Below, one piece after another: positions 7,174 through 45,404 of a DNA stretch of 64,000 nt. A program made the position numbers and the translations under genes. This DNA is from Monilinia fructicola (Eukaryota > Ascomycota > Leotiomycetes > Helotiales > Sclerotiniaceae). Location of the stretch: the NCBI GenBank assembly GCA_008692225.1, contig VICG01000007.1:1399501-1463500 (forward strand). Direction: 5' to 3'. Position 1 is the stretch's first letter. Every line of letters starts with the position of its first letter. Below the pieces are notes generated by a model that saw only the letters and a program-made list of their open reading frames with translations, was not told the DNA's origin and made no database searches.

Positions 7174-9181
7174 ATGCAACTCCTCACTGTAGTCGGCGCT
7201 ATTGCCGTTCTATCTAATGTCGTCTCGGCTGTTCCTCAACCTAATGAAAAAATTGTATGTCGATGTCTTTTTCTTCCCTTTTTCTTTTGATCACGATTGT
7301 GCTATCATATTATACGCAGAATATTCACCCTTTCATCCTACCAACAGCCTCCCCTGCATCATCACCTACTAACAGCGCTCCAGGAACACATCCCAAAAAA
7401 AGCGCTGGGGCTGGCCCGTGGAATTCCGGTTCAGGTCATGGTGGACATGGACATGGACATGGAGGCGGATGGGGGTGGGAGGTGATGATGACGATGATGA
7501 TGACGACGACGATGATGAATCTGGCTGCTGCTTCTCGCTCTGCATTGCCGTTTACACATCCGCATCTAAGGCCTGAGGAGACTAGCTCCAGTAGTTTGGC
7601 TGCTGCTACCTCACTTTCCCGTTCCTCGATTGCTGTCTCGACTGCGCCAGATTTCTTGCATTCGACTTCGATTAGTTTCAGTCTCTCTAGGTCTTTCACT
7701 GGTATTTTGACCGTTACGGATTCACCAATATCCATCACTCTTAGTACATCCTCATCCTCATTGTCATCCCACAACCTCAACCCCAACCCCAACACCCCTC
7801 CCACCACCCATCTCGGGCTCAGTCATCAATGCCATCTCTGCCTCAACATCATCCTTCACTCCTCCCCAAGCAACCCTCATCCTAAACCAATCCACATCTC
7901 TCACCCTCTGCTCCGCAAACCCCACAAGTATCGTTACGATCACCGAGAAGTTGCACCAGTACGCAGTGGATCACCGTAGTGGAATCCGGAACCTGGATCA
8001 CGACACCCTTGCCCGCTAATTGGACCACTACACCTTTACTCAGTACCTCTTTACCATCGTCGATCTCCGGTTCTCCATCCGGTGTGCCGTCGCTTGGTGC
8101 GAACTCGACGGGCATCTGGACCGTCACGCCGGTGGTGAGTAGTGGCGCGAGTACGAGTGTGCTGTCGAATCGTAGTCTGAGTTCTTCTGTGCCTACTCTG
8201 TCGGCCACAAGGGACGAGAACAAGCTTGTGGACTAGTGGCTCTCGTTTGAGCACTTTTGTCTTTTCTCCTTCTTCTTCTTCTTCTTCTTCTTCTTCTTCT
8301 TCTTCTTCTTCTTCTTCTTCTTCTTCTTCTTCTTCTTCTTCTTCTTCTTCTCTTCTTCTTCTTCTTCTTCTCCTTCTTTTCCTTCTCCTACATCAACCAC
8401 ATCATCCTCTCCTTCAGAGTCAGCCTCAAAATCCACCAAAGAATCCACATCAACCACCCTCCTATTCTCAACCACGACCCTTCTCCACCCTTCATCCTCA
8501 CCCTCATCCTCATCCACCTCCCCGTCCACCTCCCCAACCCTCGAACCAACCCCCGTCTCAACCGGCACCACGGATCTCCACCCCAGCACCACCATCGCCT
8601 TCACCACCACCGTCACCACCACCCAAATCAGCGGCACCCCCAATCCCGCCGCCGTCCACTGCGGTCTCCACGGCCTGCCCGTCGGGGATTTCTTCCTCGC
8701 GGAGTTTCGTCGAGGATAAGGCTGGGGTGGACGTCAGCTTGAGGGGGTGTTGGGAATTCTGTCGGGTGAGTTTTGTCTTGTTTTTTGTCCTTTTCCCGCT
8801 CCCCTCCCCTATGCTAAACAGCTAACGCAAATCAAGGGCGTGTACGGCATCGACAAAGGATGCGTCTCCTACTCCTTCTATCCGGAACCGGGCACCGGCG
8901 CCCCGAGATGCGATCTTTTTGGGGGGAGCGTGGCGCAGAGTTTGGATAGCATCATCCCGCAGGTTCCGAATGTTTGGTTTGATTTGGAGTGTGGGGGATC
9001 CGAGTTTGATGTGAAGGGTGGAGGTGGAGGTGGGAGATGGAAGGAATTTGAAGGAAGGGAGAGGGAGAGGGAAAGGGAAAGGGAGAGAGATTACCTCATG
9101 ATCGTTTCCTGTCATCTATCTTGTCCTTTTCCATCGCGATGCTGGGTCCTTTTCGCCATGACGATGTTTGCTTCATTATAG
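7174..9181 (+). CDS. Secreted Ser/Thr-rich protein with Cys-rich C-terminal domain, frameshifted
   Basis: The ATG at 7174 begins a clear signal peptide (MQLLTVVGAIAVLSNVVSA), followed at 7255 by a GTATGT donor; an acceptor lies at 7317-7319. The middle is Ser/Thr/Pro-rich with WTTT- and WTVT-like segments and a poly-Ser run encoded by (TCT)n. After an intron at 8766-8836 (GTGAGT, CTAAC, AAG), the last exon continues a cysteine-containing domain with CGLHGLPVGDFFLAEF upstream and CVSYSFYPEPGTGAPRCDL downstream. It resembles PAN/apple-like C-termini of fungal extracellular proteins (family assignment from memory). The coherent reading changes frame at about 7760, 7948, 8213, 8346 (inside the TCT tract) and 8708, so as sequenced no single frame encodes it. 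It is probably a cell-surface or secreted glycoprotein. Confidence 0.6.
8268..8375 (+). repeat. (TCT)n tract encoding poly-serine
   Basis: About 27 TCT units, then a one-base phase slip near 8346-8352 (TTCTTCTCTTCTTC), then more TCT/CTT units. It sits inside the secreted Ser/Thr-rich gene. The slip moves the reading from serine to leucine codons in one frame, so tract length directly decides whether the C-terminal domain is in frame. Confidence 0.85.
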
Positions 9182-11685
9182 GTAATACTAGGGGATGCCC
9201 CTTCACGTTTAGAATAAATTAATCCTTAGGTTCGGTCGTTGAATTATTCGCTTATTTATCCATCCATCTCCATATCCATAATCCCAAGCAACTGACCATC
9301 AATCAATCCTACAACCAACACCCAAGCCAACATGCAAGAATCCACGAACACAGTACGCCACACGCATGGGATGAATATCCGGCCTTGCTGATAGAGAATC
9401 TTCTCCTGCCATCTACTTATCTCTCCATCCATCCATCCATCCATCCATCTATCTCTATTGAATTAGTAACCTTGATATACCCCCTCCCTACATAGCACCT
9501 CGATAAATTCCAACGTCAATTCCAATTTCCTACCCTTCTCCGCGCGATGAAAAACGCCCCTCATGATTCCAATGTCAACACATCGTTGATTAGTGTTGTT
9601 TGATGGCTTTTTCTAACTCTTAAAACTCAAAATCCCAGATCTTTATCCGCTAGCTCTTCCCATCCCATCACAAAATCCCCCCCCCCCCCACCAAGAATCC
9701 ACCACCACCACCACCACTCCAGATACAACTACCTCCACAACACCAATCTAAAAGCAAATCCGCCATCCTCATCTCTCCCGCTTCGATCTCCTCTCTCCGG
9801 AATTCTTTTCCTACAGCACCAGCCGCTACAACGGAGACAGCGGCGTGCGGGGTTTGACGATTCATGATATGTGGATATATCGCTGTATGATAGAATGCAA
9901 GAAAGCTCGATGTTGGGTTGGTGCTAGAGCTGAGCTGAGCTGAGCTGAGCTGAGCAGAGGCCTCGGATGCAGATATTCCGGTATCTCGGGCCGACTCATA
10001 CGTGCGGCTTCTATTCTGGAGGTTCGTGAGGAGGTGTACCGTCTTGTTTAGAGCACAATTTGTGGGGGGGGGGGCTTTGGTTTGATGGTTGTGTTTGGTG
10101 GTTGTGTTTGGTGTTCGGGTGTTGTTGCGCGAAGCATTGTGGAAGTCATGTAATCTTTATGTGGTGCTTTCTTTGGCCGTGTGATGTGTTGATGTTGGAC
10201 GGCTGGGCGTGCATGGTGTTTGGATGCGGATGTTGCAAATGTAGGGGAGGGCTCGGCGCCGAGGGTTGTGCAGCTTTTATTTCCGGGTTTGCGGCGAGTC
10301 TCTGCTTTGCTTTTGGTTGGGGGCGGTGCGTCGACGTGTGATTTTGCTTGGTGTGTTTGTGAGATGGGCTGGCATGACTTTTCGGGGTTGAGAGCTTGGT
10401 AGATGTGGTGTTGTGGAGGTTTTATCGGGGCGGTTTTTGCTGCATAATGCTGGGATCTTCGTATTTCTCATGATGAGATCATACCGCCGTAACGGTTTGT
10501 CATAACTCAGAGGAAAGGGGAAGAGACATATTGGCTTCCTTTGGGTGTGATTATTGGAATGCATTTAAACTTATCATGGATCCTTTGGATGAAGAAATCT
10601 ACCCTCCTAGCTTCCCCGTGTTCATGTTCAGATCGAATGCCAGTTCTCAATGCGGTAGGAATGGGTATTTTGTAACCAAAGATTCAAGTCAATCAGAGTA
10701 ACATCGTCATATGTGACAACCATTCAATTGTTTCTCGTGTAGTAGTAAAAAATATGTTTAAGAACTCCAAGATACTAATTATTATGACGATCTTTGAGCT
10801 GTAGCCTTTTGCCCTGTTGCCATGTCATGGGCAGAAGTTCTAGAACAAGGTGCGTAAAATGAACGGAGAGTTATTTGTAAAAGAACCGTATCAGTGACGA
10901 AAATCGAAATGAATTCCGGGAGACATTGAAACTGCATTTCATTCAAATTTTGGGCATGCGGAGTGTATGTTCTACGTGAGGTGGGGTTTCTGGTAATGAT
11001 ATGTGTAAGTTACTATGTGTGGTGTTTAAGCGAGGTGGCTAGGGGGCTGTAATAGGAGAGTTTCACTGACAGCATATCGTCATCTCTTTCCGTAGAATAT
11101 AGATACGTCATCTAGTTCCCGAATATAGATTTGCTTAAGCGAGACACCTAACCGTATGAATATGCATGCAGCTCTCAGTCGCTTTGCGATTTCAAGAAAG
11201 TGAATGAGATAAACTGATATTATTCGATGAATCAAATCATGACGCAGTCAAGTTCGCGAGCGACATGCAAGGCTCTAGAATACGGTTCATCCCAACACCA
11301 CGGCTCCAGGTTACCAAGGAGAAGAGGAAGGAAGTGAATCTGATAAGAAAAAAAACAGTCAATTAAGCCACACACTATCGCACAAATTGATACTTGACCA
11401 ACTTTTCGAATCGCCAATTGACCGTTTTGTTCTCAAAATTAACTACTTAAGAGATCTCAATGGGATACGAGGACACCATCAACTCATCGCACTACATAAC
11501 ATTCTCATCTTCAAGCTTCGTGTCAAAATCTCACAAGCCACCGATTACAACCCACCCAGCCTACATCCAAGATCGCAAACACCCCTGACGTCTCCTTGAG
11601 TCCGTCACCAAGCCCCAAATACAGAGTCTCAAGATCCACAACCTTGTCCGAACCAAATCAGCCTAAGCCCAAGCAAACCGTCAAA
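9182..11685. other. Intergenic region with simple repeats
   Basis: No supported gene. It holds a CATC tract (9424-9450), a C homopolymer (9677-9690), five GAGCT units (9929-9956), a G homopolymer (10063-10073) and a GT-rich stretch (10060-10400) whose open frames have no recognisable domain. From 10560 to 11600 it is ordinary AT-rich intergenic DNA. Confidence 0.5.
9929..9956. repeat. (GAGCT)n short tandem repeat
   Basis: Five nearly perfect GAGCT units in a row in an intergenic region; no gene link seen. Confidence 0.8.
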
Positions 11686-11838
11686 ATGATTGCAATCAGC
11701 TGCACCCCAAGATATTACCTCAACGCTAGTCTCACCATCGTCTTATATATGGCTTGTATTGCAGTTTGTATCGGTTTGGTGACCTTGGGATATTACTGTC
11801 TTATCAATGCATTGATCATTGCATGCAGCTTCCTTTAG
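11686..11838 (+). CDS. Putative 50-residue membrane protein
   Basis: The ATG at 11686 has a strong fungal start context (CCGTCAAAATGA) after a leader rich in CAA and CCA, typical of fungal 5' leaders. The 50-residue product is almost entirely hydrophobic from residue 13 on, with one long or two short membrane segments (LTIVLYMACIAVCIGLVTLG is the core). I do not recognise a family. The two next small genes downstream also carry N-terminal membrane segments. It could be spurious; expression evidence or a conserved homologue would decide. Confidence 0.35.
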   Translation: MIAISCTPRYYLNASLTIVLYMACIAVCIGLVTLGYYCLINALIIACSFL

Positions 11839-14107
11839 GTATTTCTTCCCTCCCGCCGCCGAGTTCGTGGACTTCTGTTGAGACTGTTTGTGCTGATATT
11901 TGTTAATTAGGGGAGTAATTCGACAGCTGCAGTGCTTCTAGCTCAACATCAAGTGATTATTAGTTAAGTGATTCATTTGATGATTGAATGGGGGAGAGAC
12001 GGTACATGCCAGATTTCTAAGCTACAGTGCGACAATGATAAGGCTTAACTCGTTCTTCTACTCGAGTTCTGCCGACAGAATGGGAATGGCATGAGGCGAA
12101 GTATCTTCTTTACTGCAGTTTTTCAATGGTCATGGGTTTATAATCATAGGAGCAGAGTCGAGGAATGAATGGCAACATGTCTGGGCAAAAAGAGTTTTCG
12201 TGACGGGTCATCTGTGAAGGGAGGGGCAACAGAGATTGGGATGGGTGATCAATCTACTCACGTTCATCTGGCCTTATAACTCAAGCGGATTCCGTAGAAT
12301 TTCAATGAATCTTATCAGACAGAGACAGTCCACGATCCAAGTTTTTACTAGGATAATACGACGACCTAATGAAAGTCTCAACGTGATGCGCCATTGATTC
12401 AAATTTAGAATTCCTGTAAGCATACTGTATTTTGAACCTGATGATTATGTATCATTCTTGTATATTTATACTTGAAGGCCACTCCCTAGCATCCACATAT
12501 AGTTTCAATTGCAAGCAATCGTAAAGAAAAGCACAGCATTGAAGCTCCCAGATTCATCTACCTGTATGCCCTCTCCTTCTCTGTCTCTCGGCGTCCCTAG
12601 ACGCGACTTGATTCAAAAGGGGAAGGTGGTTAGCTCAATTTCTTGGAAACTCTATGTTTGACTCTATATTTAAGATAATGATAACAAACATATATATGAC
12701 TGAGTTAAACTCGCTACTCTTCTACCAAAACAAAACCGAACTTTGGTGGTCATAGTCATCTCTCTGAGGATCTCAACTCTAAATTTCACATCATCAGTCG
12801 AACGTCTCCTGTGTATATAACAAGCAGACGCGAAGTTGTATCTCTGAATCTTTCTCATATCCATATACCGGCTTATTAGCCTCTAAATTACTCTATCAAT
12901 TCTCAAACTTACCGTCTCTCTTTTACAAAGTAAAGATGATTCAATCAAAACAACAACATGACGGAGAGTAATCATACAAAAAAATATGCTTTTATATATT
13001 AGAATTTTCTGAAGTGAATTTTGAAGTAAATCCTAAAAATTGTGGTAAGCCAACAGCTTACAGAATGAGCGTAGTGTACTTTTGAACAGCACACAACTAA
13101 GCTGTGGAACGCCGGAACACCACGAACCACAAACAAAATATCATATCTTAGGTACCTAGCTATCACTTGACTTACATGTAATACCGTTGAAGTTTCATCC
13201 ACGGATCTCGAGAAGTGATGTTGCTAGCGAAGACTAAATTACCCCATCTGGCACGCTAACAGACTTTAGCGAAGTTTGCACGTATTGACAGCAATAGTAA
13301 TATGGATAATGCAAGCTTTGTGATATTACTTCTCCACAAATATCACCAGATCAATATTGAGATCCAGCTTTGATCTGATCTTTATCTCCAGCTGTTTTGA
13401 CATTTCTCATTACCTAGGAACATGGTACCTATCCCAAAATGTTGTCAACAATGATACAGGTCAACCTCATCGCTTTTTTAAGACCCCAAATTCTCCCAAG
13501 TATATTTGCAAGCAAAAATAAAATAAAAGAAAGACCCCAAAAATATGCTCATCGCATCGCCATACGCTATATTCTCTCTACTCGGGCGGAACTCTGGGCG
13601 AACCCAGGGCTGATCTTACACCGAAGTGTAAAGTGGGAAGTCAGGTTGCCAACTCGGCCATCTAACCTCGTTGATGAGATATTTGATAGGACTGCGTTTG
13701 TTTGAGAATTTATTGGATTCGCCTATTTTGTCGGGATGGAGCTATGTATCCAAGCAAATGAGGCTGATGAATTTTGGCCAAGAACATGCTCAACTGCTGT
13801 GGACAGCGAGAAGCTGGTGGTATGATAGGAACATAAGAAATGAAGGTAGCAAATGTATAGAGGAAGGGGGGAAAGCAAGCAAGAAATTTACGGATTGCGA
13901 GGAAATCAAAGAAAGCATAATTGATACATTTCCTGCACAAAACATGAATCTTCAACAAGATAGTCAACACACCAACGAAGAATCAGGTCATCTTCTCAAG
14001 AACCAACAGCCAAATATTTAACAGAACAACAAACAATCATTTACTTCCTCAAGTGTCAACCACCACGTCACAAAAACAATCAAATCAACTCCGACAGCGT
14101 TTCGAAA
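11839..14107. other. Intergenic region
   Basis: AT-rich with no recognisable gene. Open frames at 13439-13705 and 13671-14021 (plus strand) lack domains and good start contexts; the second may be 5' leader sequence of the small membrane ORF at 14108, since its end is CAA-rich in the way fungal leaders are. Confidence 0.45.
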
Positions 14108-14374
14108 ATGGATGCCTTGACCATTCTCTTAACGGCCACCTCCTGTTTCTATATTTGTGCCACTTTCGTACTGCTTTTTTCAAAATCTCAAATTTCGTCG
14201 GCAGATACATGCTTTGCAGGCAGAGCTACCAGTTTAGACTTGCAATTCACAACCATTCTGGAATATTGCCATAAACTTTCTCGATGGAATATTAAATGTG
14301 CGATTTTTTTTTTGACAAAATCTTTTTCAAATGACTTTGCTGATACTTCCCTGGGAAATCAGAGTGCCGGTTGA
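14108..14374 (+). CDS. Putative 88-residue protein with N-terminal membrane segment
   Basis: The ATG at 14108 has an acceptable context (CGAAAATGG) behind a CAA-rich leader. The product starts with a hydrophobic helix at about residues 4-25 (a membrane anchor, or a signal peptide cut near SSA) followed by a mixed 60-residue region with three cysteines. No family is recognised. It lies between two other small genes with similar N-terminal hydrophobic segments, which may be coincidence. Confidence 0.3.
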   Translation: MDALTILLTATSCFYICATFVLLFSKSQISSADTCFAGRATSLDLQFTTILEYCHKLSRWNIKCAIFFLTKSFSNDFADTSLGNQSAG

Positions 14375-15012
14375 AAAGCTGCTGTTGGAATTGTCTATAT
14401 TGCGATAAACAACAATACGACACAATGCGATATATAATAAACTTTTACCAGATGCCTACCTGTGCCAGAATATGGAGGAAGGAATACATGGAGATATGAG
14501 AATGCTTCAGTATGGGCTAAGAGCAGTCTGTTGGTATGAGAATATGGTGTTGTTTGGACATAGTTTGACACAGTTAGACGGTGGTCAGTTATCAATGTCT
14601 GCATTTGACCTTGAAAAAAGTCTTGCAATTTTTCAGGATAATCATATTGAAACATGGTCTGCATTTTGATTTCTCTGTGAAACTGTTGTCAGCAAGGAAG
14701 ATATTTCGTGTTTGCTAAGAATGTTGTCTGAAGACCAACAATTTATGAATCATCAGGTCGTACCTATCATCTTAGATCACATATGATACAAACCTTCATG
14801 TGGTGTTTGCCCAAAGACAGTTCTTTGTACCTAACGTTAACATCCAACAAGACCAAAGTAAAATCTGGTGTGCGGACAGACGGACAGGCAATTGCTAGAA
14901 TGCTGATGAAGGTGTACTATATAACGAATTAGCACTTTCCATCGATTGATCAATCAAGTTATCAACACTTAAGCCAAACAGTCTAGGCAAAAAACTTTTA
15001 CATACCTTGAAG
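14375..15012. other. Intergenic region
   Basis: No supported gene; the open frames on both strands at 14395-14669 overlap each other and have no domain. The last 100 bp probably contain the promoter and leader of the gene starting at 15013. Confidence 0.45.
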
Positions 15013-15561
15013 ATGTCGTCAAATGCCACGGTTGGCATAGTCCTTGTGGTTATAGTAATAAGCCTTACTGGAATTGTGGCCAGCATCTATTGCTGCAGAT
15101 ATCAAGATAGCAAATGGTCGGGTCACCAACAGCCATCTAGTGGATCTAGGTCTAGGAATAGATATACCTTGCGCAACACCAACAATACTGCTCCTGGAAT
15201 TCAACTTGGGACATTTTTTCCTCAACAACCCTTCCAACGAAACAGACCACCCGCCGTCCAAAATGGGGCAAATTTTCGAGCTAATTCTCCCTCTCTACCT
15301 CAAATACCTGTCTTTCCCAGAGTGCTTCCACCTACCTCATACCACCAACCCAATAGAAGATATATTATATCACCATGGGCCCAACCTCCTCAGGTCCATC
15401 AAGCCCCCCTATCACCTCCTCCTTCTCCGCGAAATCTCCAAAATCAGCCTCACCAGTCACCGCCTAACGTTCAGATCCCCCCACCCGCTCTTGCCCCTGC
15501 CACACCCGGAGCACAAGGCTTAAAAGGTATATTGAAAAAGCCAAGGCAGCGGGGTACATAA
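15013..15561 (+). CDS. Single-pass membrane protein with proline-rich tail
   Basis: The ATG at 15013 (ttgaagATGtcg) opens an uninterrupted 182-residue frame. Residues 1-6 are a short extracellular segment with an N-glycosylation site (NAT). Residues 7-28 form a strong membrane helix (VGIVLVVIVISLTGIVASIY), then a CC pair and a positively charged segment, which predicts an outside-in single-pass protein with a cytosolic tail. The tail is rich in Pro, Gln and Asn with PPxP-type motifs and ends in LKGILKKPRQRGT. I know no enzymatic domain; a proline-rich adaptor for SH3 or WW partners is a reasonable inference. The frame is intact, unlike its larger neighbours. Confidence 0.65.
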   Translation: MSSNATVGIVLVVIVISLTGIVASIYCCRYQDSKWSGHQQPSSGSRSRNRYTLRNTNNTAPGIQLGTFFPQQPFQRNRPPAVQNGANFRANSPSLPQIPVFPRVLPPTSYHQPNRRYIISPWAQPPQVHQAPLSPPPSPRNLQNQPHQSPPNVQIPPPALAPATPGAQGLKGILKKPRQRGT

Positions 15562-16698
15562 ATATCTTTATCCGTGGCATAAAAGCTCAATTTCGAGGTC
15601 CGCCCAGGTTTAAGATATCATTACCACAAACCAAAATAAATAGCTGGACTGAATATGCTGTGCATGTTGCCATAGGATATTTACTTATAATCGTAGAGAT
15701 CGATTACTTATTTTCGAGGCACTATTGGTCGAGCTGGGCTTCATTGAAACCCTAACTTGCTTTTGTGCACTTTCAGGGTTTTTGGCAGCAAATGCTTAAG
15801 AGGGTTATTGAAGCATGACAAGAGCCATCTGATATGATATCCTACCTACCACTATTTCGCATGGCATATTAAGATAAAGAACGATGAAGCGAAAGATCCT
15901 TTACTCCCTATCAATTCCCTTTTCATGATCTCGTGCCGGCTCGAGAAATAAGAGCACTGGACCAATTCCCAAATTCCAGAATATAGAATGTCGATGATAA
16001 GGAAAAGAAGGAACTATAAGATAAGATAACCTTGTAGACATTCTCTGTTACACATGCAGTGCAGTTCATGTTTTGCTATCGCGGAAACAACAGGGAGGAG
16101 TCACTCACTAAAGAGCTACTGTTTAATCTGCTTTGTGTTTCCGTGCAATTACAAACACCAAACCAAATCATTACAAATTCTATATCCAATTTCTAGGAAT
16201 CACCATCCCATTTCCTTCAAAGATAGCTGGAGTGATTTGATCCACAGATAGATTCCTTCCTCAAAAATGCAAAAGGGGAAGGTGAAGGGGAAAAGGGGAA
16301 AGGGGGAAAGGGAAAATGGGAAAGGGGAAACGGGATAGGGGGAAGGGGAAGGGGAAGGGGGAATTCGAAGCGGAAGGGGGAAGAGGAAAACTTCTTTATG
16401 GATGCTTCCAATAGCGGTACAAGTATATTTGCCGATTTCATGTGCATCCATCGCACACCGAAAAGCGACCGAAAGGATCCATCTGATTCGAATTGCACTT
16501 GTTTTCACCTGCGGATACCTCACTAGAGAGACGTTTACACTCACAATATAAATTCGCCGCAATTTTGAATGTCTCACGGCGCGGCCCGGATTATCAATTT
16601 ACCCGAAGCCTTACCAAATAGTTCTAGTCTCTAGATCTAGAGTTAACCTATCTAGATAATAATTTTATCCTTCCAACTTCAAATTTTGAGGTATTGAA
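15562..16698. other. Intergenic region with G-rich purine tract
   Basis: No supported gene. A GGGAAA-rich purine tract spans about 16268-16390 and generates a false Pro/Ser/Phe-rich open frame on the minus strand. Confidence 0.55.
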
Positions 16699-16953
16699 AT
16701 GTTTGATTGGCAAATAGAGATATCACAGGGAATTGTCCGATTCTTGTCAAGATTACCGTTTCATTTGGCTGATGAGCTTGTTGACAAAATGAATGAAGGG
16801 CTTGCTTGCCAATGCACATGTACATTTGAGATGAAGGGGTTCGTTCGGATTAACCTTACCGAGACTCGCATAACTTCAACCAACATAAAGCAATGGGTCT
16901 ATTTCCATTTGCGTTGTGGTAAGCCGAAGAGAAATATAGACGTAACCTTATAA
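16699..16953 (+). CDS. Small hypothetical protein (84 residues)
   Basis: A short intact frame from an ATG in a fair context (ATTGAAATGTTT). The product has an amphipathic N-terminal half, a CQCTC cluster near residue 38 and a further cysteine near the C-terminus (HLRCG). I recognise no family. Codon use is not obviously different from noise, so this is tentative and could be part of a larger degraded gene. Confidence 0.25.
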   Translation: MFDWQIEISQGIVRFLSRLPFHLADELVDKMNEGLACQCTCTFEMKGFVRINLTETRITSTNIKQWVYFHLRCGKPKRNIDVTL

Positions 16954-18165
16954 GGATTGTTACTGGATGGATAAAGCATTCCACCTGGGTAATTTCCACA
17001 ATATATGCAACTAATTACTTGTGAGGTTACTTGAGTATGTAATCTTATCATCTCATCTAGTTACTTAAGCCTGACTGATCTTATTAGGATCTTTGAGACA
17101 ACTAAACTGCCGGTACAAGACCCACATTGAGAGATGATAAGCTTGGTTTACCCTTAGGTCTACTCCGTACCGTACAGTGACAACCCGTAGAAACATTGCA
17201 TCTGTACAAAGAGAGTTCCAATTCAGCATCATCTGAAAAATGAGTTAGTCAGCAAAGCTCTTTCCATCTTCTATCACCTCATATTTTATTATTAGATATT
17301 GCCTTCCAAGCTGGTCAGTTCGTAATGGGAAGTTGCCAAAGATTACTGTACTCGTTATCATTTGACCACGCCATTCTCTATTTCCAAATAATGGGCTTCG
17401 TAAGACTGAGACTATGGCACCAAGACATGGGGTGGGAAAGAAATATAAAAAACAAAAATATGAAGAATCTTTTGCCAAGAAAAATGATGAGTGATCGACG
17501 ACGATAGGAAAGCTTCAAATCGACTTTATGCTAAAAAGGGCTTGGCGACTGCGCTTCCATCACCCTTGATTTTTAGTGTGGTTTTGTCAGCATGTAGCAT
17601 CAACTTCGTGAATCTCTATCAAACCTCGCAGCTAAAACCTTTGGCTTTCATAGAACCCTTATTTGAACAGTGAATAGCTCCAGTGAGCTGCTATACATAC
17701 ATTATCGGACGTATGGCGCCACAATGACTACCCTCATCGTATGCAATCAATATGGGATCGATCTCATTGCTTGATACGCTGTTGATCATACCTACGCATC
17801 GGGCAATGTGATAGATAGATAACTTTGGCAAGGACCGATAGTTGTTAAGGTCAGTCTGAACTCAATTTAATGCGTTTCCTCAATTGCGATTGCCGGGGCT
17901 GAAGATTACGGTTCCATTATTTTGGAAATCTTATCCTAGTTCAGCCCACATTCCTCCAATCTGCCTGTAGCCAGCTTATATTGTCTTGAGAGAACTTCTT
18001 CGGTCGTCAACAATTCTATCTTACACGTTGTTGTTTATATTCTTAATGTTTGTTCACTTGGGCGTATTTAATATTTCTGAATGTCCTAGCCAGAGGCCCT
18101 AGAACATTTAGACCATCCAATAACCTCTTCCACCTATTTACAAACGCACCCTTTAGTTTCCTAAG
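16954..18165. other. Intergenic region upstream of the GT71 gene
   Basis: No supported gene. One TACTCCGTA motif occurs at 17161-17169. The stretch before 18166 is pyrimidine-rich, consistent with a promoter and leader. Confidence 0.5.
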
Positions 18166-20043
18166 ATGTTGGCCAGTTCACTGTCCAAGAGGATTACCGT
18201 GATAATTATCTTCATCTCCGTTTTGTATCTTTCTTTCCGAGACAAACTATGGTCTTTGGAGACTCCTGTCTTTCTCAAAGAGCCCTTGACTAGCTTCGGT
18301 ATTAGTGCTACCAATACTTCTCACACTGAACCGAACAATTCGACAAATGTCCTCAAGCCGATCGACACAATCAGCTCCATTGAAGCAGCCCAAATATCAA
18401 AACTTATCCGCCAGTTGCATAATACCGGACCTCCAAAACTTACCCAACCTGCCGCATGTAAAGGCCGAACCCTCTCGATTGAGGAAGTCACAAACACTAC
18501 CGAGCGTCGAGACGTTACTCCAGTATCTGACAAACAAGTCGAGGAAGCGCGAAAAGCGCACACACGACTGTGGTGGAGATAATACGAAATTCCTCTCATT
18601 TAGTCCCATATACAGCCGAAACCAAAGGCATCGTAACTGTGGCAGGCGGGAGATACACCGGCGCATTACTCGTTACCCTTCGCATGCTTCGAAGAACAAA
18701 TTCAACGTTGCCAGTGGAAGTTTTTATGCCGACTGCGGATGACTACAATGAACACACGTGTGAAGTGGTATTACCATCTCTAAAACGCCCGTTGTGTTAT
18801 GATTCCACAATATGAGAACCTTAAGATTGCGAGATACCAGTATAAGATATTTGCTGTTATTTTGAGTAGTTTTGAGGAAGTTCTGTTTTTGGATGCGGAT
18901 AATTTCCCTATTGTCGATCCGGTTGAATGGATGGAGTCAAAAGTGTTCAAGGATATGGGTTATGTTCTGGTGAGGACTTTTCCATCTAATCTCCAGATAT
19001 TCCAATAGCCTGGATTGCAGTCAGGCAATTTGAGATTCTTGATTCTATTTGGAATCAAGAATTGTCTCCAAAACATTAATATGGCTTCAATTATTGCAAG
19101 CTTTTGCATCTAGTCTGCTAATCCGGAATGCTGGAGATGATCCTCTTCTGTTTCTCTGGGAGAAACTAAATCACTAATAACCTTATAGTGGCCAGACTTC
19201 TGGTGGGCAACCACATCTCCTCACTATTTTCAAGTCCTCAACGTTCCCACCCCCTCCCTCCTATCTCTCGGTACGACCGAATCTGGTCAAATAATCATCT
19301 CGAAACGAACACACAGCGACGTACTTTTGTTAGTCCTCTACTACAACATTTTTGGACCCTCCTTCTACTACCCACTCTTAACCCAATGCGACGCCGGCGA
19401 AGGAGACAAGGAAACATGGCTGTACGCCGCCATTGCACTCGAGAAAAACTATTACCAAGTTAGACAGAAAAATGGAATTATCGGACATCACACGGACGAA
19501 GGATTTAAGAGCGCAAGCATGATGCAACATGACCCACAAGCTGATTATTCTACATATCTCAAAGAAGAAAGAGAGGAGAGAGAACATCTGGTTTTCAGGA
19601 AAGATAAGACAGCGGAAGTGGTTTTCATGCATCATAATCTGATCAAGCTATCGCCAGTTGAAATGGTCGATTGGATAAAAAAGAATGTGGGAATGAGGAT
19701 GTGGGGGCCCAAAGAAGATACCATTAGAAAGTTCAAAGAGGATTTGGAAAGAGCTGTCTGGGAGGAACTTTTGTGGGTGGCTTGTGAGTATGGGGATAGT
19801 CTGGTGAATTGGAATGAGGAGGTCTGTGAGGGGGCTGATGGGGCATTGGGGAGAGATTGTGGCAAAGGAGGCTTATGGAGAAGTGAGGAGAAAGTTTGGG
19901 GTCAACAAACATACGGCGGAGGAGGAGAAGAAGAAGAAGGGAGAGTAGGAAAGTGGAACGAAATACAGGGTGGTATCGATACGGAGTTTGGGATTCATCT
20001 TTTGGATATAGGGCTGGATGACTTTCATGGTGTTACGAGCTAG
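18166..20043 (+). CDS. MNN2-like GT71 alpha-mannosyltransferase, two frameshifts
   Basis: The product is a type II Golgi membrane protein: a signal-anchor helix (about residues 9-25, ITVIIIFISVLYLSF), a stem, then a GT71 catalytic domain. Hallmarks are KGIVTVAGGRYTGALLV, the DxD metal/nucleotide site in LFLDADNFPI (Asp codons at 18892-18900), WPDFWWATTSPHYF and FGPSFYYPLLTQCDAGEGDKETW. Known MNN2/MNN5-type enzymes add alpha-1,2-mannose branches to N-glycan outer chains using GDP-mannose. A 219-nt intron (18970-19188, GTGAGG...TATAG) separates two exons in phase 0. Exon 1 needs one missing base restored near 18570 and one extra base skipped near 18795-18814; the shifts cancel and the total is about 552 residues. 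The C-terminus is Gly/Glu-rich. Convergent with the CorA-like gene. Confidence 0.85.
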
Positions 20044-32383: not shown

Positions 32384-32580
32384 GGGTGAGTGAGTGAATG
32401 AGTGAGTGAGTGAGTGAGTGTAAGGTAAAGAGGTACTGTACGAATGGTTTGGTGGGTATGGTGGGTATATGGTAAGGTAAGGTAAGGTAAGGTAAGGTAT
32501 GGATGGTATGGATGGTATGGATGGTATGGATGGTATGGATGGTATGGATGGTATGGATGGTATGGATGGTATGGATGGTA
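32384..32580. repeat. Adjacent GAGT, GGTAA and GGTATGGAT tandem repeats
   Basis: Three tandem arrays follow one another: GAGT (about 32384-32420), GGTAA five times (about 32471-32495) and a 9-bp GGTATGGAT unit about nine times (about 32495-32579). The arrays share GGTA, suggesting one arose from another by slippage and point change. Open frames across them are artefacts. Confidence 0.85.
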
Positions 32581-33194: not shown

Positions 33195-33260
33195 TTCAGA
33201 TATTCAGATATTCATCCATCCGTCCGTCCATCCGTCCGTCCATCCGTCCGTCCATCCGTA
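33195..33260. repeat. CATCCGTCCGTC 12-bp minisatellite
   Basis: About four units of CATCCGTCCGTC, derived from CATC and CGTC, ending in an exact TACGGAGTA motif at 33259-33267. Upstream are ATTCAGAT/TGTTCAGA near-repeats (about 33160-33211). Confidence 0.8.
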
Positions 33261-34298
33261 CGGAGTATTGACACACTCACACACATAACGAGAGAGCATG
33301 AAGCACATACCAAGTACTCTCTCTATGCACACACACTTACTCACCCACATCATCGAGACCATCATCATTATTAATTAACCTTACCTATCTACTTGTACCT
33401 AGGTAGGTGCTAAGGTTGCTTACCTAATTAGTACTCATAAGGTTAGGTAATTCATAATAAGTTATTTTAGAATTTAACATTTGACATTTGAGATGAGAGA
33501 TTCATATAGCAAGTACCTAGATGAGATATTAATACTATATTGACTAATGGTATTATTATTATTCTTATGATTTTTATTCTTCTTCATCTTATTATTATTA
33601 TAAGTATAAATTTATAAGATTAGTTAATATCTTAACCTCTCTTTCTCTTTTCTCTCTTCTCTCTTAATCTCTCTTTCTCCTCTCTTAATCTTTCTCTCCT
33701 TTCTTAATCTCTCTCTCTTACTTTCTTACTCTTTTTATATCTCTATATCTATTCTTATAGAATTAAAATTCCTATAAAGAATTGATAGATTAAGGTTTTT
33801 CTTAGAAAAAGATTATATTTTATAAATATATAAATAATTTAAATTTTCCTAATCTAATTATAAATAACTTATATTTTATTAGTCTATTTATAATAGCTTA
33901 GTTCTATTAAAAAGCTTTATTTTATATAATATAATATTTTAATTTTTAAATCTTATTTTATCTTTTATTTTTAATACTTTAATAAGCTAAATAACGTTAA
34001 ATCTCAAAATAGTTTTAATAATAATAATAAGATTTATAATTATTATTATAATATTAAAAATAAACTTACTTTTAAAATAATAAAGTTTAAAAAAAACTAT
34101 ATTAGCTTATTCTTTTATCTTTTAATAAAGAGATAAATAATATATTAATATTTAAATATTAGATTTATTAACTTATAAGAGGTTAGAATCTTAATCCCGT
34201 AGGATACTAGCTATTTATCTTAACCATACCTACCTACCTAGTACCTCCTTATACTAAGATACACCCCGCCTCTCTAAGTTATAACTTCTCGAGTCGAC

Positions 34299-35623
<1,325 letters not shown>

Positions 35624-35825
35624 ACATACCTTAACTTCTCTTACCTAGGTACGGAGTACAAGTACGTTTTGAAATTTCGCCAAGCAATGCTCATTTAATA
35701 AACCATACTATGAATTCAATCTAGTCTAAGTTAACGGGCCGTAATACTATAAGAACTATATATTTATTATACCTCTAGGACTACTATTCATATATTAATT
35801 ATAGTAGATAATAATAAATATAATA

Positions 35826-35861
35826 TATATATATATATAGTAGTTATAATAGTTATAATAC

Positions 35862-35893
<32 letters not shown>

Positions 35894-35981
35894 ATATATA
35901 TATATATATATACACATACATACATATACATATACACACACACACACATATATATATATACACATATATACACATACATAC

Positions 35982-36014
<33 letters not shown>

Positions 36015-36015
36015 C
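35826..36015. repeat. TA/CA dinucleotide repeat cluster
   Basis: Alternating (TA)n, TACACA and CA-rich units over about 190 bp, just right of the AT-rich block. Open frames of Ile/Tyr/Cys/Val repeats are artefacts. Confidence 0.9.
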
Positions 36016-36059
36016 ATTCACACACGCACACCCACCTTCAAATCATTTCAAGTCAATAA

Positions 36060-39000
36060 TGAGCCCATCTCAATTACCTTTTGGATCAATTCAAATCAAT
36101 TCATCACAACCTAAACTTTATGATACGAATTGTTGTCTTTCAAGTATTAATCATCATGAGGACCTACCTATTGGGTATGAATTACTAATAAGTACAGACA
36201 GCGCTGGAGTAGTATGCAAATTAGAAAAGGAACGTCTTTCATCCTTTTCAGCATGGCAGTAAGGTTACAAGCATGTGTTCTATTCTTGGTGACGATATAC
36301 GGGATACCTTCCTCCCCATGGATCTATCGACCTATCGACCAGTTAATCTTTTGGATAGGTGATGCTTATCATTCACCAACAACCGTCCAACAGAGCAGTA
36401 TGTTATGAGCATTGCCCCTCAGTTCTCAACACTCAACACTCAACACTCAAGATAGAATATTACGTAGTTGCAACGTTGGGATGCATGTCAGTCAAATCAT
36501 AGCCGGATAGACTTCTTCTCTTCTCCTCTCTTCTCCTCTCCTTTCCTCTCGTCTCTTCCCTCCCCCCCCTTCTTGCCCTTTCCAAGTCTCTCAGTATTAC
36601 GTTACGATGTCTATGCCATCTTGAGTATAGCATTTCGTAACGCGGTGATGACCCCTCGTATCGCGGTAGAGCATTGATCGATTCCTCGCAAGCATCTCTT
36701 TATCGAGACCATGGCTATCTTACCTCATTTCTTTGATTACTGAACTCTCCACGGAGGTAGGTACCTGCACGATCTATCCACCAGTGGTCCTACCTCTCTA
36801 CTGACCTCTCGACCTCCCTCCCTACCTACCTACATAAGTTTCGGCACTTCACTTCATACTGTGTCAAATATGGAATTCTCGACAGGACTTTGATATTACA
36901 CCAAATATCCAAACCAGTCTGCTGTGAAACAATCCGGCAAAAGGGGAGGCTCGGCATTCGGAAGACCTCGTACGAAAGTTAAGTTCGGACCATATGGATG
37001 GGATTTGGATTTGGACCTACTGTACCTAAGTTTAGAAATCCCAGAAGGCTGACAAAGCCGTGGGATATTTAGAACGAGCGAGAGAGCGCCTTGGGTCGCA
37101 AAGAAGTGTGAGGTACGGAGTACAATTTCAACGGCAGACAGAGCCTTCGCTTCCGTTTCTCAAGTCGTTCTACGGAGTAACCTAATAAGAATTCTCACGA
37201 ATTACATTACTCTCTGCATTTGATACGAGCTGATCTAGTCCCATCATACCTTTCACGACACGAGTAACGCGTATCCTTTCAATTAATCCTGAACTGCATT
37301 ACCTTCCTAAGCGTCTGAATGTCCACAGAACACGCAGATCTTGATTAAATTATATCAGGTATTGCGTCAACAAACCTTCCATGCATGCATGATTTTCACA
37401 AGTGTGAAGACATGATATTCATCTTTCATATCGTTTTGATCAATCAGATCAATCAACGTCATGGTACATTCCATTATCATCGTCTCTACAGTACAAGTAC
37501 TGCATTGTACTCAGAAGCCAAAGTGGGATGATGATGGCGTGAAACGAAAGGGCTTGAACTTCAATTCATGCACATTCCTCTCCAAACACATGTTGTCAAT
37601 CACGTGTGTTTCATTTCCGCTGAACCAGCATTTCGATTTTTGCTTTAGGCTCCAATTGTATCTGTCAAGAGATTTTCTTGTTCACATCAAGAGTTCTTGT
37701 TTCAAGTTCATCGTCGTTTGACTCTGTAAATAAACATCTTCTACATTGCGTCTGATACGTGGCGATGATGGATTTGTTTCGCATCTCTCTTTCGTTAGAA
37801 CCTTCTTCCATCCTTCCCCCACATCCTGAATCCTGACAGAACTCACATGTGCTCAATGGCAGAAGGATTTCCACTTCTACATCGTCCAGACTTTTCAGGC
37901 CGCTGAACTTCATGTCACTTGATGATAAAATTTCCGAAATTCAAACCCTCATGAGCATAGACATCGGCACCATCAAGCCGCTGCCAAACTCACACCAGGA
38001 CATTATTCCTCGCACTATGGGAATGCCGTGAGACAAATCACTTGATAGGATAATCTCGTCATGTTATGAGCCAAGATGATGGAGATCGTGCTCGGTACCC
38101 ATTGCGCTTGGACGTAAGAGGGCGCTTTGTGCTGTGAGGGCTAATGGCTTCAACATCTAGTACTTTGGCCGTGGCGTATGGTGGGCGAGCTTTTGTCGAC
38201 TGCATCTTTTACTATCAGTCTTGAACCACAGAGTTGATTTTGTCAAGCCATTGCAATCATCCATCATTTGACTCTTGGGATACTTTCTCCAACATAGAGC
38301 TCAAGCCACATGATCTTCAAGAGTACGCGTCATTGGTTTATCATCTCCTCTAAAATCACGAATCTGTCCAATATGGTCACGTGTATTCATCATGAGCAAT
38401 TCAGATGACTCTAGAGATTCTTTGCCAGCATCTAGCTAGTCGTGAACCGATATGCTGATCAATCTTTAAAAGTCAATACAGTACAGTATTCCCACCTTCA
38501 AAACTTGGTCCCATTGGTAGCCCACGTGATCCGACCGGGCGCATTTAGTTTTGCAACGCAGCCCGTCACCAGAAATCTTTTCCAGTGATAATCAACTTGA
38601 CTGCATATCCTCCCGTAAGTTTAGTTCATGCTTCAAAACACCTCTTGACCACAACCTCCCTTGAAATATTCTCACGCTGTCGGCATGCAATATATGTATA
38701 TGTATATATATATACGCACCACAACCCCCTTTCTCTAAAATTCACCAAAAAGTTTCGAGGAGCCGTCACACAGCTAATCAACATTTACGCCCCCCCTCAA
38801 ATTAATTAATTCATCACACTGTCCAAAACAAGTTACTATGCATCCATGGATGCCATCAATCCATCTACCTCTCTCGCTCACCAAGACACACCCCCTCGCC
38901 CTCCACACCAACCCTTCTACCCGCCATTCCCTACCCATCCACCATCTCATCACTCATACCCCCACCTCCCAAGCTGGTATCTCGGCTCGGTTACAGGCCG

Positions 39001-42000
39001 CTCTGCGTGTGCCCGTCGGATATGTATGCTCGTGTCGTAGTCTTCCTGCGTAGATGTCATCGCCGTGGTCGGATTCTGGTTTTGGATTGTGGGATGTTGG
39101 TTCCATGTAGAATGCAGGATGCGAGCACAATGCTCTTCTCATCACCCCTCAAATAAACTCTCTACAAATCACCTACAAAACAGAACCTCGCTAAGCGTCC
39201 TTTTTTTTTTCTTTCTTTTTTTTTTGTTTTTGGCAATGCTTCTGATGAAATACGAAAGAATATTCCCGGGTATCCATCCAGCCATTCATCCGTCCATTCC
39301 TCGACCGAACTTCGAACCGCTCACCGCCCTGGCCGGGTGGAATGGGATTTTTGAAAAGGCGGAGCGGACTTGGTGTCGTTTGTATGTTGGTGGGTGATTG
39401 TTTTGCAATTGGTGGAGGAGAGTTTGGAGTAGAGTTTGGAGCTTTGTAGTTCGGAGCTGAGAGTTCGTGTAATTGGTCGGGGGGGAGATGGATTTGGAAA
39501 GGAATGGGAATTTACAAATTGAGGATTTTTTTTTAAATTTATGGGTGTGGAGATGGGAAGATAGGAAAGTGAGAATGACCTTCATTTTGTGGCGTTGGGA
39601 TTCGGGTTTATTTATTTTCCTATCCCTGTACCAAGGACGGAAACACACTCCCCACCTCAAGATCTAGAGATCTTCTTCACGCGTCAGTTCCTGCCGGAAT
39701 TCGAAGGGGGATCTAGGGGCTTGTGTTTTGCGGTTCACGGATCATGGAGATACGTATATCCGCCCAATGCCCCCTCACACTCGACCGAAAGTAAAAATAT
39801 ACGAATTCCCTCGCATCCTCATACCAGGTTTCCTTCCCCTCCATCTGGAAAATTCCTCGCTCTCCTCGCCTTCCACCTTGATGCAGAGGGAGTGTTGCGG
39901 GCAGACTTGCGTCCTCGCCGCGCTGCGGGTCGGTAGCGCCTCTCCTAACGAGTCAAAGATTCATCTACCATCGTCGATTCCAAACTTCTCGCAATCCGCT
40001 CCGTGTACAGATGAAGGGGCCGCGTTGACGTGCACGAACGTTTGAAATTTTTCGTCGTGCGTTTTGGCAGAGTGGAATGCTTCGTTTATGGCTTGGCAGG
40101 CAGGTACTGTATCATAATGTTGGGCCGTGGGTTGGGCTGGCTTCATGTTTCCCCATCATTGCCCCCGCTTCTTCTTCTATCTCGTTCTTTGCCCTCGAGC
40201 GGACGCGTCTTCTCGTGGCACTCTTCTCATCGCCGCGCCATCTCACTGCACAAGATACCTCCCATCTCCATACACCCCCAACGCGCACCCCCGCCTCCTC
40301 ACTTCAAATCCACAAACTCAACCCCCCCCCCTACATGCATACATGAGCCCCAACAACCCGTTCTCCCCATCTATCTCGTGAACCCGGGTGTCGCATTCAT
40401 CGAGAGCAAAGACCAAGTCTTGATTAATTCGTCCATCGTGGCGATCCCCACGAAATCCCACCGCGCGCATCTCACGTATCCATCATGGTGCAGCAATCTC
40501 TCGAGTTTGTCCTCGACGCTAGGCGCTGCTGGTTGCGCGATTCCTCCGGCACGGAGCCATGGGTCCCGGGGATGATGTCCGGAATTCTATAACCTCACTT
40601 CGCGGCCTGCACGTGGGTGTAGATGCTGATGCGCGATTGCGATAGACGCCTGCGGCTTGGCTTTGGCGGTGAGGATACGTACCGAGGACGGAGAGCGTAT
40701 CTGTCGGGAATGGGGTCATGGCGTCGCGAGAACAGCACGCTGTATATATCGTGGCATGCTATCATAACATCCACGACCATCCGTTACCGTTTGAGATTTT
40801 GGTAGTGTGTGGTTTGTGCGATGCAAAGAGGAGTTGGTGTGGATCATCCTTGCCTTTTTCCTCTTTGGAGCTTGGTTTGTTTATTGGTCTTGATCTCTAG
40901 AGTTTGGTCTATCGAATTCGGTTTATCGAGTTTAGCGTCCTCAGGCGTCTTTAGATGTATTGTATCGGTTTATTGATACCTAGTTACTATTGCTATTGGC
41001 ATGCAAGCTGTTTCGAATTGAAAGTGTTCAACCATTAAAATCACTACAAGATAGAAATAGGGGGCGAAGCGAAAAAACAAACCCAACAACAAAACGACGA
41101 GGACATGACATAATTCATCTCGACGAAAGAATGTGAACGAATGTACTCATCATCATCATGATTGTATTGATAACAGTGACATGAAATCGACGGTCCGAAG
41201 ATCCAATCACGTTAGAGGGTTGAGGTAAAACCAGCATATCCCGAGGACTCGGACGCTAACGCACATGGCATTATTCAAAAGCGCTCTCGCAACCAGCACA
41301 CAGCGCACGCGAAGAGATCCTCCTTGCAACGTCCACACTCGACAGCCCGCCTGGCCACTGCCCTAAGATATAACCTCGAGAGGGGGGCAAAGGGGTGCTA
41401 TATCATGCTAGCGAGCGTATTGCCGCGATGGTGGGGCCTCGGGGAAAGTTGATGGCGATGATGATTGTAGCCATGTTGGGTTGGGAGACGTACCCGTGGG
41501 GGGAGGTGCCAGGTTGATAGCGATCTTTTCTTTGCACGGGAGTAATCTGGGAAAGGGGGGTGCTTGGATTTCGGCGGTTGAGGCTCGCGATTGGGGCGGG
41601 CGGATTTGGAAGCGTTGGGGAGAGAGGTGGATGTCAGAAGATTTGGGGAAGGGGTAAGTAAGTGCGCTCGCATGAGGGAATACAGCCTGCTTGCAATTGG
41701 TACTTATCGAGTTTCTTACATACACCCGGGGCAAAATCATCGGAATATCCGGCATATCCAATGCTCATGCGTGATGCGAGCCATAGGGGCAGGAACCACG
41801 TCCAGAACCTACAGATTGTGCGGTTCCCGCTGGAAAATTACACAGGGGTTGGTACATAGAGTGGACGATACGCTGCACGAGGAAGAAGGCGATCACGTCA
41901 AATCGCGGTAGCTCGATTAGGAGCTCCCCATGCATTAGAACAAATCATACAAGTAGATCAATGTACATCATGGCACGACCCCCCGAGCCGCTAGGTATGC

Positions 42001-42364
42001 ACCCATCCACGCACCCCTCATCAACAAACACAACAAGCACGCGACATGTGCATGGCCATTTCCAACACCTAGCAAGCGGAGCTGCGCCGACCGGAGGACA
42101 AACAAAAAGAGTCAACAGAAACCCGCTATCTTTCTCTTACTACGCATGCATCTTCGCAAGCTCAGCAGATACATCCGAGCGCGATTCATCGTCCTTCACA
42201 GCCCTCTTTCCTCCTCCTTTGCCGCGATGAGAATCTTGCGGTTCGCAAGTAGACCACCAGCTTCCGATGCGGCATTCTCGACGTGCAGATGTAGACCGGT
42301 TGGGGTCAGATTTGGGGGTTGGGATGTGGACTGGGGAAGGTAGTATTTGTCGGGAAATGGATCA
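36060..42364. other. Gene-poor region with GC-rich patches
   Basis: I recognise no gene. 36-38.8 kb is ordinary intergenic sequence with two TACGGAGTA motifs (37114, 37171). 39.0-42.3 kb is GC-richer and has overlapping medium open frames on both strands without known motifs; the block at about 40370-40640 (plus) looks coding-like across two frame changes but I cannot name it. Confidence 0.45.
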
Positions 42365-42540
42365 TGTGATATTTGGGTTGCTGTACGAAGAATACGATTC
42401 AACGTATTAGGCGTGCGAGCACCTCGAGGATGTCTATAGAGTGGTGCTCCATTCCATAGGGTACATGGAGAATAACGAGGACGATTACAACAACGAGAGA
42501 TTAAGCACTTGGAGTTTAACTAGCCAAGTTAATGCTAACA
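42365..42540. repeat. Dispersed repeat copy 2, solo-LTR-like
   Basis: A 176-bp partner of 25269-25443 in the same orientation, beginning TG and ending CA. The two copies have almost equal length and shared blocks throughout. No internal retrotransposon sequence lies next to either copy, so solo LTRs or a small non-autonomous element are both possible. Confidence 0.6.
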
Positions 42541-44850
42541 GTGTTGAGTCTTGGTTTAGTATGGATAGAGTTGGATGGTTGGATGATTCGAAGGCTGGTG
42601 GTTCGATGGTGGTAGTGGTGGTAGAGCTGGAGCGATAGATAGGATGGATAGGATGTGGTGTAATGGGAGAATGGACGAGCAACTCATGCTCGGTTCAAGG
42701 ACCTATCTTCAAGGGATCTTGACCTAAATGTGGGATATGAACGGCCCTGCATATTCTCAATGTCCTTTCTGTCTTTTCAGTTTTGACTCCACGACGTGAC
42801 AAAAGATCAGCATGCCTGATATTTTCTACCCTAAATGTGGAACATGCTTTTGTTCATCTTGTTTCTATTGAGTCCCCTTGGTATCAAGTCCAAGCGAGCT
42901 TTGGACATGTGGCATTATCATCATGATCATCATCTGGGTACTTCAATTTTTACTCCATGACTCTGTACCGAATATAAATTTCTTGCTGTCGTCCAGGATG
43001 CGCCAGAACTGCAACCAATATCTTGCAAATCAAGCATCGGCATCCGCGAGTACTTCGTACCCAACCCACGGCTTCTCCGAGCCGACACCCGATCACATAC
43101 CAACTGAGCACCCTATGGAAGGATGGTTCAAACACGGGAAGATACAACGCCACCGGGGAGGACTTTGGAAATGCGGAAACCAAGTAATGAAGCGCAGAAC
43201 GATCAGAGGCGGGCAGTGAAGATTTTCTCATGCGCCGATTGTGCTACGCGAGAGAGATTGTCTACATTGCGTTCGAGCACCTCAGACATGCCGATCTCAT
43301 CATTACGCACTATGAAGTATATCGACTACCAAGAGTAGATGGGGTATTTGTCTCTGGTGGGTGGGTATTGCATAACTTGAGATCACGTTTGCCAGCAAAG
43401 ATCCGGATGGAGAGATGATTCCAAGAGACTTGAATTGATGTGAAGCAACGAAAACCCAAAGTCTTTTGGCAGCGAGCGCGAGACGCTCAAAGATCATTGT
43501 GGTTGCGTTTACGTGGATCCCGAGAAGAAGGGTGGAGAATATTTAGCATTAAGCCGGGTCTGCCGTTCCAAGCTCAGCCTTGCGTCTTGATGGGCTTTGT
43601 CTTAACACCCCAGGTACCTGTAACCTCAGGCGCTGTCTGCAACGAACCTCGCTTTTGAGTTTTTGAGAAGATGCTGCTAATTCAGGAGTAGCTTTGACTC
43701 TGAACTTCGCTTGGGCTCTTGGGAGGTTTGTGAAGACATATCCGATGGGTTGGCACTGGGAACAAGAACACTCAATCTCCCAATGTATCTTACAATCCTG
43801 GAGAATATCAATATCATTCAAAAAAAAAAACCTTGTGAGGGTAAAGCATAGCAATACGAAGATAGCTAGAAGTCATCCCGGCCCATGTCTTCTACTTATG
43901 GTCAACATCAGAAAAGCTATCTTTCGATATGGAACATCCGCTGGTAACAAGCTTTCGAAAAGTATTTGGTGTTCAAGGTTTCTTATAATAGTGAGCATCC
44001 CGTGAAAGGCATCCCGTGAAAACCCCGAGCGAAGCGATACACATGACCAGGGCTTTGTTGCAACGATTTATCCCCATATGGGTATAAATCCTCTAAATCA
44101 AATTGATATGGTGAGCGAATGAAACATGATCAACGAATGTTAACCCTTCAAGAATCTTCTAGTGGTGGGTTGCAATCCGGACTATGCAAAGCTTTGATGA
44201 TATATCACAATGTCATTTTCGCCCTTGCAAAAATGATAAACGAGATATTGACCAGACCCCAAACTTCAAAGTGCTTGTTTAAATATTTCATTGGGAGGCA
44301 AAAACTAGACGAAAAGACTTGCAAGTATTATGGGGCGAAGTTGATAAAGGACATATCTAAGCACAATGAGGCGACCCCACGATATTGGATTGCCAAATAC
44401 CGAGACATTTGAGAGCTTCATGATGATTAGCTATTCCTTCGAAGGATACTGGCAATCAAGATGAAGAGAAAGGTCGTGCTGACCCACAGTACAAGGGATA
44501 ATTCTCAAGTCGAAACTCGGGGACAACGAGCTTCCTTCTGGAGGCGCTGACCCTTTTCTCCGACCGTACAGATGGTAATACCATGTCCAGTGAAACCTAC
44601 TGCGAAAGGTCTCGGTGACTACTCTGAACTACAAGGTTTAGAATTAATTTATTGATAGCTTTAGCAATGAATGCAGATAACTTACCAATAAGATTCAATG
44701 GTACATCCACTTTCCGAAAGGATAAGAGCCGTCACCCCTGCACCAAAAAGTTTATATCAAGGCCAAAGCCATCGCGAACTTTTGGCAATATTGATTCCAA
44801 CGCCGGAGCCCAAGTTCAGTTTTGGATTTGAATTCATTTGCTTGAAGTGT
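42541..44850. other. Region without supported genes
   Basis: Medium open frames (42878-43219, 43230-43418, 43694-44005, 44119-44412, all plus) have no recognisable motif. The first is threaded with poor codons and the last two are AT-rich. They may be decayed coding DNA. Confidence 0.4.
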
Positions 44851-45404
44851 TCAAATTTGTCCACTCAATAGATATATTTCCTTATTGGTTCTAACCTTCT
44901 CTTGCTTACTTGCCGCGAGAAACTTATCAATATCATCTTGAGCTAAAGGGGAATAGATCAGACTGCAATCTCTCCAAAAAGTCCTGGCTGGGGGATTAGG
45001 AAAAGCACAGTGGCTAGATATTTCTCTCACAGTCTCAGCACAATCCAAAGTTCCCCCAAGACTTATTTTGATAGACTCGCGAGGCCATACTAAGATGACC
45101 TTATCTTCACTTGAATCTTTGTCTTCATTACTGCCATTATCAGCCCCCACACCCTGACCCTGAGTCTTCTGTGCCAGAAGAATCCGGGCTCCGCATCAGA
45201 GTCATCACTGACTTCCCACAGTTCGGGACATCTGCTGGCGAGCCAGACGTAATCCTTTCTGGGGTTTGACAGAAGCGATGATCCTTTTCGGGGTTTGAAC
45301 GGACACCAAAGCCCAACTTTGATTTCGTGATTGTACGTCGCGAATATGATATTAAATGAAAGGGATTGCATTGAGCCAAAACTTGAGCACAGCAGGCACG
45401 TCAT
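44851..45404 (-). CDS. Hypothetical orphan protein with one frameshift
   Basis: Two minus-strand frames, 45404-45090 and 45150-44851, join into one sensible reading of about 184 residues if one base is restored in the GAGCCCGG run near 45185. The joined reading contains CPELWEVSDDSDAE, then ILLAQKTQGQGVGADNG, an acidic stretch and KVILVWPRESIKISLGG before a C-terminus ending in YLLSGQI. I do not recognise the family. The ATG at 45404 is the first in frame but further exons upstream are possible. The single-indel pattern matches that of the named genes to the left. Confidence 0.35.

Follow-up and report, generated by a model that had tools for sequence, protein, structure and literature searches.

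Clustered frame changes in a 64-kb stretch of the Monilinia fructicola Mfrc123 assembly as probable residual consensus errors

Monilinia fructicola is the cause of brown rot in stone fruit. Genomes assembled from long reads without read-level short-read polishing, for example from PacBio continuous long reads (CLR) or with the DBG2OLC and Sparc programs, are described as carrying small indels that break many unrelated genes with no nonsense changes, at a rate of the order given in the Sparc paper. Frame changes of the same kind occur in a window of 64,000 nucleotides, the whole stretch of DNA analysed here, which is located on scaffold 7 of the assembly of strain Mfrc123 (contig VICG01000007.1, positions 1,399,501 to 1,463,500) and in which they interrupt four neighbouring genes, encoding a GT71 family protein, a CorA-like Mg2+ transporter, an amidoligase and a TMEM184-like protein. 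They differ from the described artefact in being patchy, with 1.9 frame changes per kb in the zone occupied by the four genes, whereas eleven other genes have a rate of about 0.13-0.33 per kb. Judging from sequence comparisons, these changes are most probably (with a probability of about 0.96) residual errors of the Mfrc123 consensus and not mutations of the fungus, so that the broken gene cluster would be an artefact of assembly.

According to the available sections of the Mfrc123 genome paper, DBG2OLC was used to combine PacBio RSII reads at about 24x coverage (quality 0.858) with an Illumina pre-assembly, and a Sparc consensus followed; read-level polishing with Illumina data is described in these sections for the rDNA scaffold only, and the reported Benchmarking Universal Single-Copy Orthologs (BUSCO) figures are 88% complete, 10% fragmented and 2% missing. 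The accessible part of the Sparc paper gives error ranges that depend on the number of rounds: for E. coli, 0.11-0.41% with 30x PacBio alone and 0.02-0.17% with 30x plus Illumina contigs, and for A. thaliana, 0.17-0.36% with 20x plus Illumina contigs. A second assembly of the same species, that of strain CPMC6 (RKRL01), differs from that of Mfrc123 by its 92x coverage, two rounds of Arrow, manual curation and a BUSCO score of 98.7%, as stated in the available text of PMC8070815, where more than 100 PacBio indels are reported to have been met and corrected by hand and the lower Mfrc123 score is termed unexplained. In the available text of one paper that mentions M. fructicola Mfrc123, frameshifts due to assembly errors are mentioned only as a general caution.

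The frame changes were counted with a custom protein-to-DNA alignment which permits GT-AG introns of 42-400 nucleotides (the only intron type permitted by the aligner), frame changes and read-through stops, and which was run under four penalty settings, one of them with a stiffer frame-change penalty. In the stop-to-stop frames scanned with Pfam, whole or partial GT71, CorA, Amidoligase_2 and Solute_trans_a domains lie in more than one frame between 18 and 31.6 kb. The GT71 (Mannosyl_trans3) gene (18157-20043, plus strand) requires three frame changes under the default settings whichever of four homologues it is aligned to, with a single intron of 219 nucleotides recovered with three of the four, and the TMEM184-like (Solute_trans_a / Ostalpha) gene (29573-31601, minus strand) requires four against each of four homologues, with three GT-AG introns; both counts remain constant over the four homologues and the four penalty settings. 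The CorA-like gene, EYC84_002526 (20608-24789, minus strand), needs about six changes (by default, 6 for two near-full-length relatives and 8 for two more) in addition to 6-7 GT-AG introns, and the intronless Amidoligase_2 gene (25826-27055, plus strand) needs about three (3 against each of two homologues by default, 2 to 6 under altered penalties), the counts for these two genes varying with the homologue or the penalty setting. For none of the four genes does the printed alignment contain an in-frame stop.

The original prediction, made from the letters alone, had listed six genes to the left of 46 kb as broken by single-base indels and free of nonsense substitutions. The alignments cover four of the six and bear out the breaks in all four, together with the lack of nonsense changes and the counts proposed for the TMEM184-like (4) and amidoligase (3) genes; the counts proposed for the GT71 gene (2) and the CorA-like gene (5) have to be raised to 3 and 6-8, respectively. 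One of the changes in the GT71 gene is a two-base shift, so that the frame changes are not all strictly of the single-base type.

Fungal introns are short and frame-changing, and the frame switches seen in an amidase, a GH47 and a cytochrome P450 gene of the flanks can be explained, by eye, by introns. It might accordingly be supposed that the frame changes of the zone are also spliced out and that the genes are unbroken. However, even with introns permitted, frame changes are required in each of the four zone genes whichever of the four penalty settings is applied, and in the TMEM184-like gene about 14 nucleotides separate the two frames at a frame switch in the alignment with homologues, a gap too small for an intron. 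An ab initio model of genes, given states for introns and for frame changes, was also tried and proved too weak owing to a low codon bias; known breaks of the zone were mostly absorbed as introns or left uncalled, and its counts were not used.

The most telling test of error against decay comes from beyond the window, where conserved chaperone genes elsewhere in the assembly show a similar pattern. A whole-genome search for the Hsp70 and Cpn60_TCP1 families yielded 41 rows, grouped into 19 loci, six of which contain a total of nine frame changes; these nine correspond to seven junctions, at which the spacer measures -1 to 2 nucleotides, and to one inner out-of-frame segment counted as two. Five of the six broken loci belong to the ten Cpn60_TCP1 loci, the sequence was inspected directly for three of the six, and in one Hsp70 locus the out-of-frame middle segment matches residues 315-401 of Hsc70 in solved Hsc70 structures. 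Since the spacers leave no space for an intron, the two frames meeting within a few nucleotides in the six loci, misread introns become an extremely unlikely explanation. In addition, chaperonin subunits are essential in fungi, and it is therefore very unlikely that the chaperonin breaks are real.

The way in which the frame changes cluster in four adjacent genes, flanked left and right by long open frames, would also be expected from true decay, that is, from a local group of pseudogenes in strain Mfrc123. The four genes nevertheless come from unrelated families, the breaks in Hsp70 and chaperonin genes are of a like kind, in-frame stops are lacking and the introns are kept, with no sign of splice-site loss in the zone genes. 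In the GT71 gene, 516 of 516 aligned residues are identical to those of the CPMC6 protein MFRU_005g03190 (519 amino acids) in spite of the three frame changes, hence no raised amino-acid divergence over the aligned residues; this comparison concerns one gene at the protein level, no such CPMC6 protein being among the listings for the other three zone genes. Three coding indels unaccompanied by any amino-acid substitution are hard to square with decay, which is accordingly regarded as very improbable. Equally little weight is given to the idea that part of the zone represents a real and very recent burst of indels in Mfrc123, caused by a local mutational event and still devoid of amino-acid substitutions. 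The composition of the 18-31.5 kb region is not that of repeat-induced point mutation (RIP), the TpA/ApT ratio of 0.63 and the (CpA+TpG)/(ApC+GpT) ratio of 1.30 being like those of the flanks. The preference for assembly error over decay expressed in the original prediction is thus upheld by the GT71 identity, the lack of stops and of RIP, the chaperone breaks, the assembly method and the BUSCO score, and the comparison with a second strain that it had suggested gives an intact GT71 protein.

The zone also holds repeats with dozens of copies elsewhere in the genome, and near-identical copies of a collapsed or duplicated region could have confused the consensus, or a degenerate duplicate could have been assembled. 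When the segments 7100-27000 and 27001-46900 were compared to the whole genome, however, the matches listed consisted of the dispersed repeats and of short matches, with no genic copy among them, and the chance that such a region lies behind the breaks appears minimal.

Residual consensus error remains the preferred reading, and the errors would be those left by DBG2OLC and Sparc at about 24x of PacBio coverage. The dense zone would correspond to a stretch devoid of any Illumina contig in the consensus and would hence display the error rate of PacBio reads alone; that such a contig was missing there is, on the rates, an even bet. Gene prediction would then have masked breaks by calling spurious introns or shortening the models, which is shown for the CorA-like gene only. 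The Mfrc123 model EYC84_002526 comprises 1026 amino acids and aligns with nine introns, including one of 369 nucleotides, compared to 1208-1215 amino acids and 6-7 introns with its relatives, and when frame changes are forbidden in the alignment an intron of 151 nucleotides appears; the annotation thus hid breaks in this gene. False frame breaks are also a plausible cause of the low BUSCO score of Mfrc123. As a separate observation, the CorA-like model of M. laxa, EYC80_001134, comprises 614 amino acids and is deprived of the N-terminal half of its relatives; the M. laxa assembly may present the same problem as that of Mfrc123.

The original prediction had opposed broken genes to the left of 46 kb to intact genes from 52 kb on. 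The contrast holds within the window: the four broken genes accumulate 16 changes in 8.28 kb, i.e., 1.93 per kb (0.19%), on a left side that reaches 9.9 kb when two intact open reading frames (ORFs; 5256-6272 and 14950-15561) are included, as against no change in 5.26 kb to the right of 52 kb, and the probability of finding all 16 changes on the left under a uniform rate is 0.0011. The division at 46/52 kb is local only and does not represent a real boundary, since breaks also occur beyond both ends of the window. At about -1.3 kb, an Anp1 gene switches frame between stretches matching residues 6-139 and 128-299 of solved Mnn9 (3zf8), and at about +132 kb an acetyl-CoA transporter gene switches frame between residues 77-153 and 153-308 of the solved acetyl-CoA transporter 1 (9m0s). 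The latter gene probably contains one more frame change upstream, in a part left unmatched by the solved structures, and at about -37 kb a gene resembling molybdenum-cofactor sulfurases contains two probable compensating changes, recognized by eye and from a motif.

Over eleven genes outside the zone, representing about 14.9 kb, the two changes supported by solved structures correspond to 0.13 per kb and the five obtained by adding the probable ones to 0.33 per kb, coding lengths being rounded and several of the eleven genes being judged intact by eye (such as the GH47, amidase and P450 genes of the flanks) or from Pfam frames only. The zone thus exceeds the outside rate by a factor of 14 (p = 5e-6) or 6 (p = 3e-4). 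Two genes of the right flank, encoding a diphosphoinositol kinase and a UstYa-like protein, were excluded from this count, their frames being unresolved. Long uninterrupted frames of the flanks, e.g., of 1337, 1253 and 1110 codons, are at odds with the zone rate. The zone is a dense patch of breaks over a lower background, the error rate being patchy and not zero elsewhere.

Three control genes, each aligned to three or four homologues, agree with this contrast. No frame change was found in the NAD kinase gene to the left of the window, with 619 of 619 residues identical to the CPMC6 protein, in the phosphopantothenate-cysteine ligase gene at about +135 kb, with 399 of 399 residues identical, or in the phytase-like gene of the window (61.4-63.2 kb); together with the GT71 protein, the two first-named proteins are those identical between the two strains over their aligned residues. 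The three controls together contain no change in 4.64 kb, as against nine expected at the zone rate.

Several points weigh against attributing the breaks to consensus error. No single indel is proven an error from the sequence at hand. The zone rate of 0.19%, which counts frame changes while the Sparc figures count total errors, lies inside the 0.11-0.41% range of PacBio alone at 30x and also inside the range of the 20x hybrid assembly of A. thaliana, and the cause of the clustering is thus not separated by the rate. Twelve of the 16 zone changes are insertion-like, a direction which is only suggestive (p = 0.077); insertion-rich errors are usual for PacBio CLR. The controls are a non-random choice, being the three of ten queried genes with families among the listed matches, and of the remaining seven, two or more turned out to be broken. 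The genome-wide scored set leaves out the tRNA-synt_1 and MFS loci: the tRNA-synt_1 search gave 12 rows, and the MFS search, in which 9 of 362 candidates were scored with a bias towards intact genes, was not used. Finally, the intact frame of the CPMC6 GT71 gene could stem from manual curation; intact GT71 homologues are however found in Ciborinia, S. sclerotiorum and M. vaccinii-corymbosi, which makes it unlikely that the curation of CPMC6 matters.

The Mfrc123 assembly serves comparative work on brown-rot fungi, as indicated in the available text of PMC8959702. If six of 19 chaperone loci are falsely broken, comparisons of gene loss, pseudogenes and protein length based on Mfrc123 would be unsafe.

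Among the remaining genes of the window, the ORF at 5256-6272 (plus strand, 339 codons including the stop) needs no correction and has no Pfam match, the intact gene designated 15013 in the original prediction corresponds to an open frame of 203 codons (14950-15561, plus strand), and the Ser/Thr-rich secreted gene gave no Pfam match for its one open piece scanned. The three genes predicted to be intact from 52 kb on proved to be so: a predicted gene with an open frame of 417 codons (52225-53701, plus strand), which needs no correction and has no Pfam match, an uninterrupted gene with a frame of 805 codons (58231-60630, plus strand), and the histidine phosphatase (phytase-like) gene (61416-63189, minus strand), with two introns and no frame change against three homologues. 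The 805-codon gene encodes a SesA-type N-terminus, a segment with weak matches to P-loop NTPases, and a set of ankyrin repeats, a combination found in fungal NLR-like proteins.

Two repeats deserve mention. The first, dispersed and about 180 bp long (25263-25444, plus strand), gave 39 scored matches out of 88 candidates at 81-88% identity, and Rfam and tRNA scans detected in it neither a tRNA nor an Rfam family at gathering score. The second, AT-rich and containing a (TTA)110 array (34291-35631), lies inside the error-dense zone and has many related copies genome-wide; the 34-36 kb region has a GC content of 0.15 and differs from 18-31.5 kb by a TpA/ApT ratio of 1.09 and a (CpA+TpG)/(ApC+GpT) ratio of 0.57, and the repeat may be a RIP-degraded element. 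About 95-98 kb to the right of the window end, a UstYa-like gene adjoins a cytochrome P450 gene, and the two possibly form a secondary-metabolite pair.

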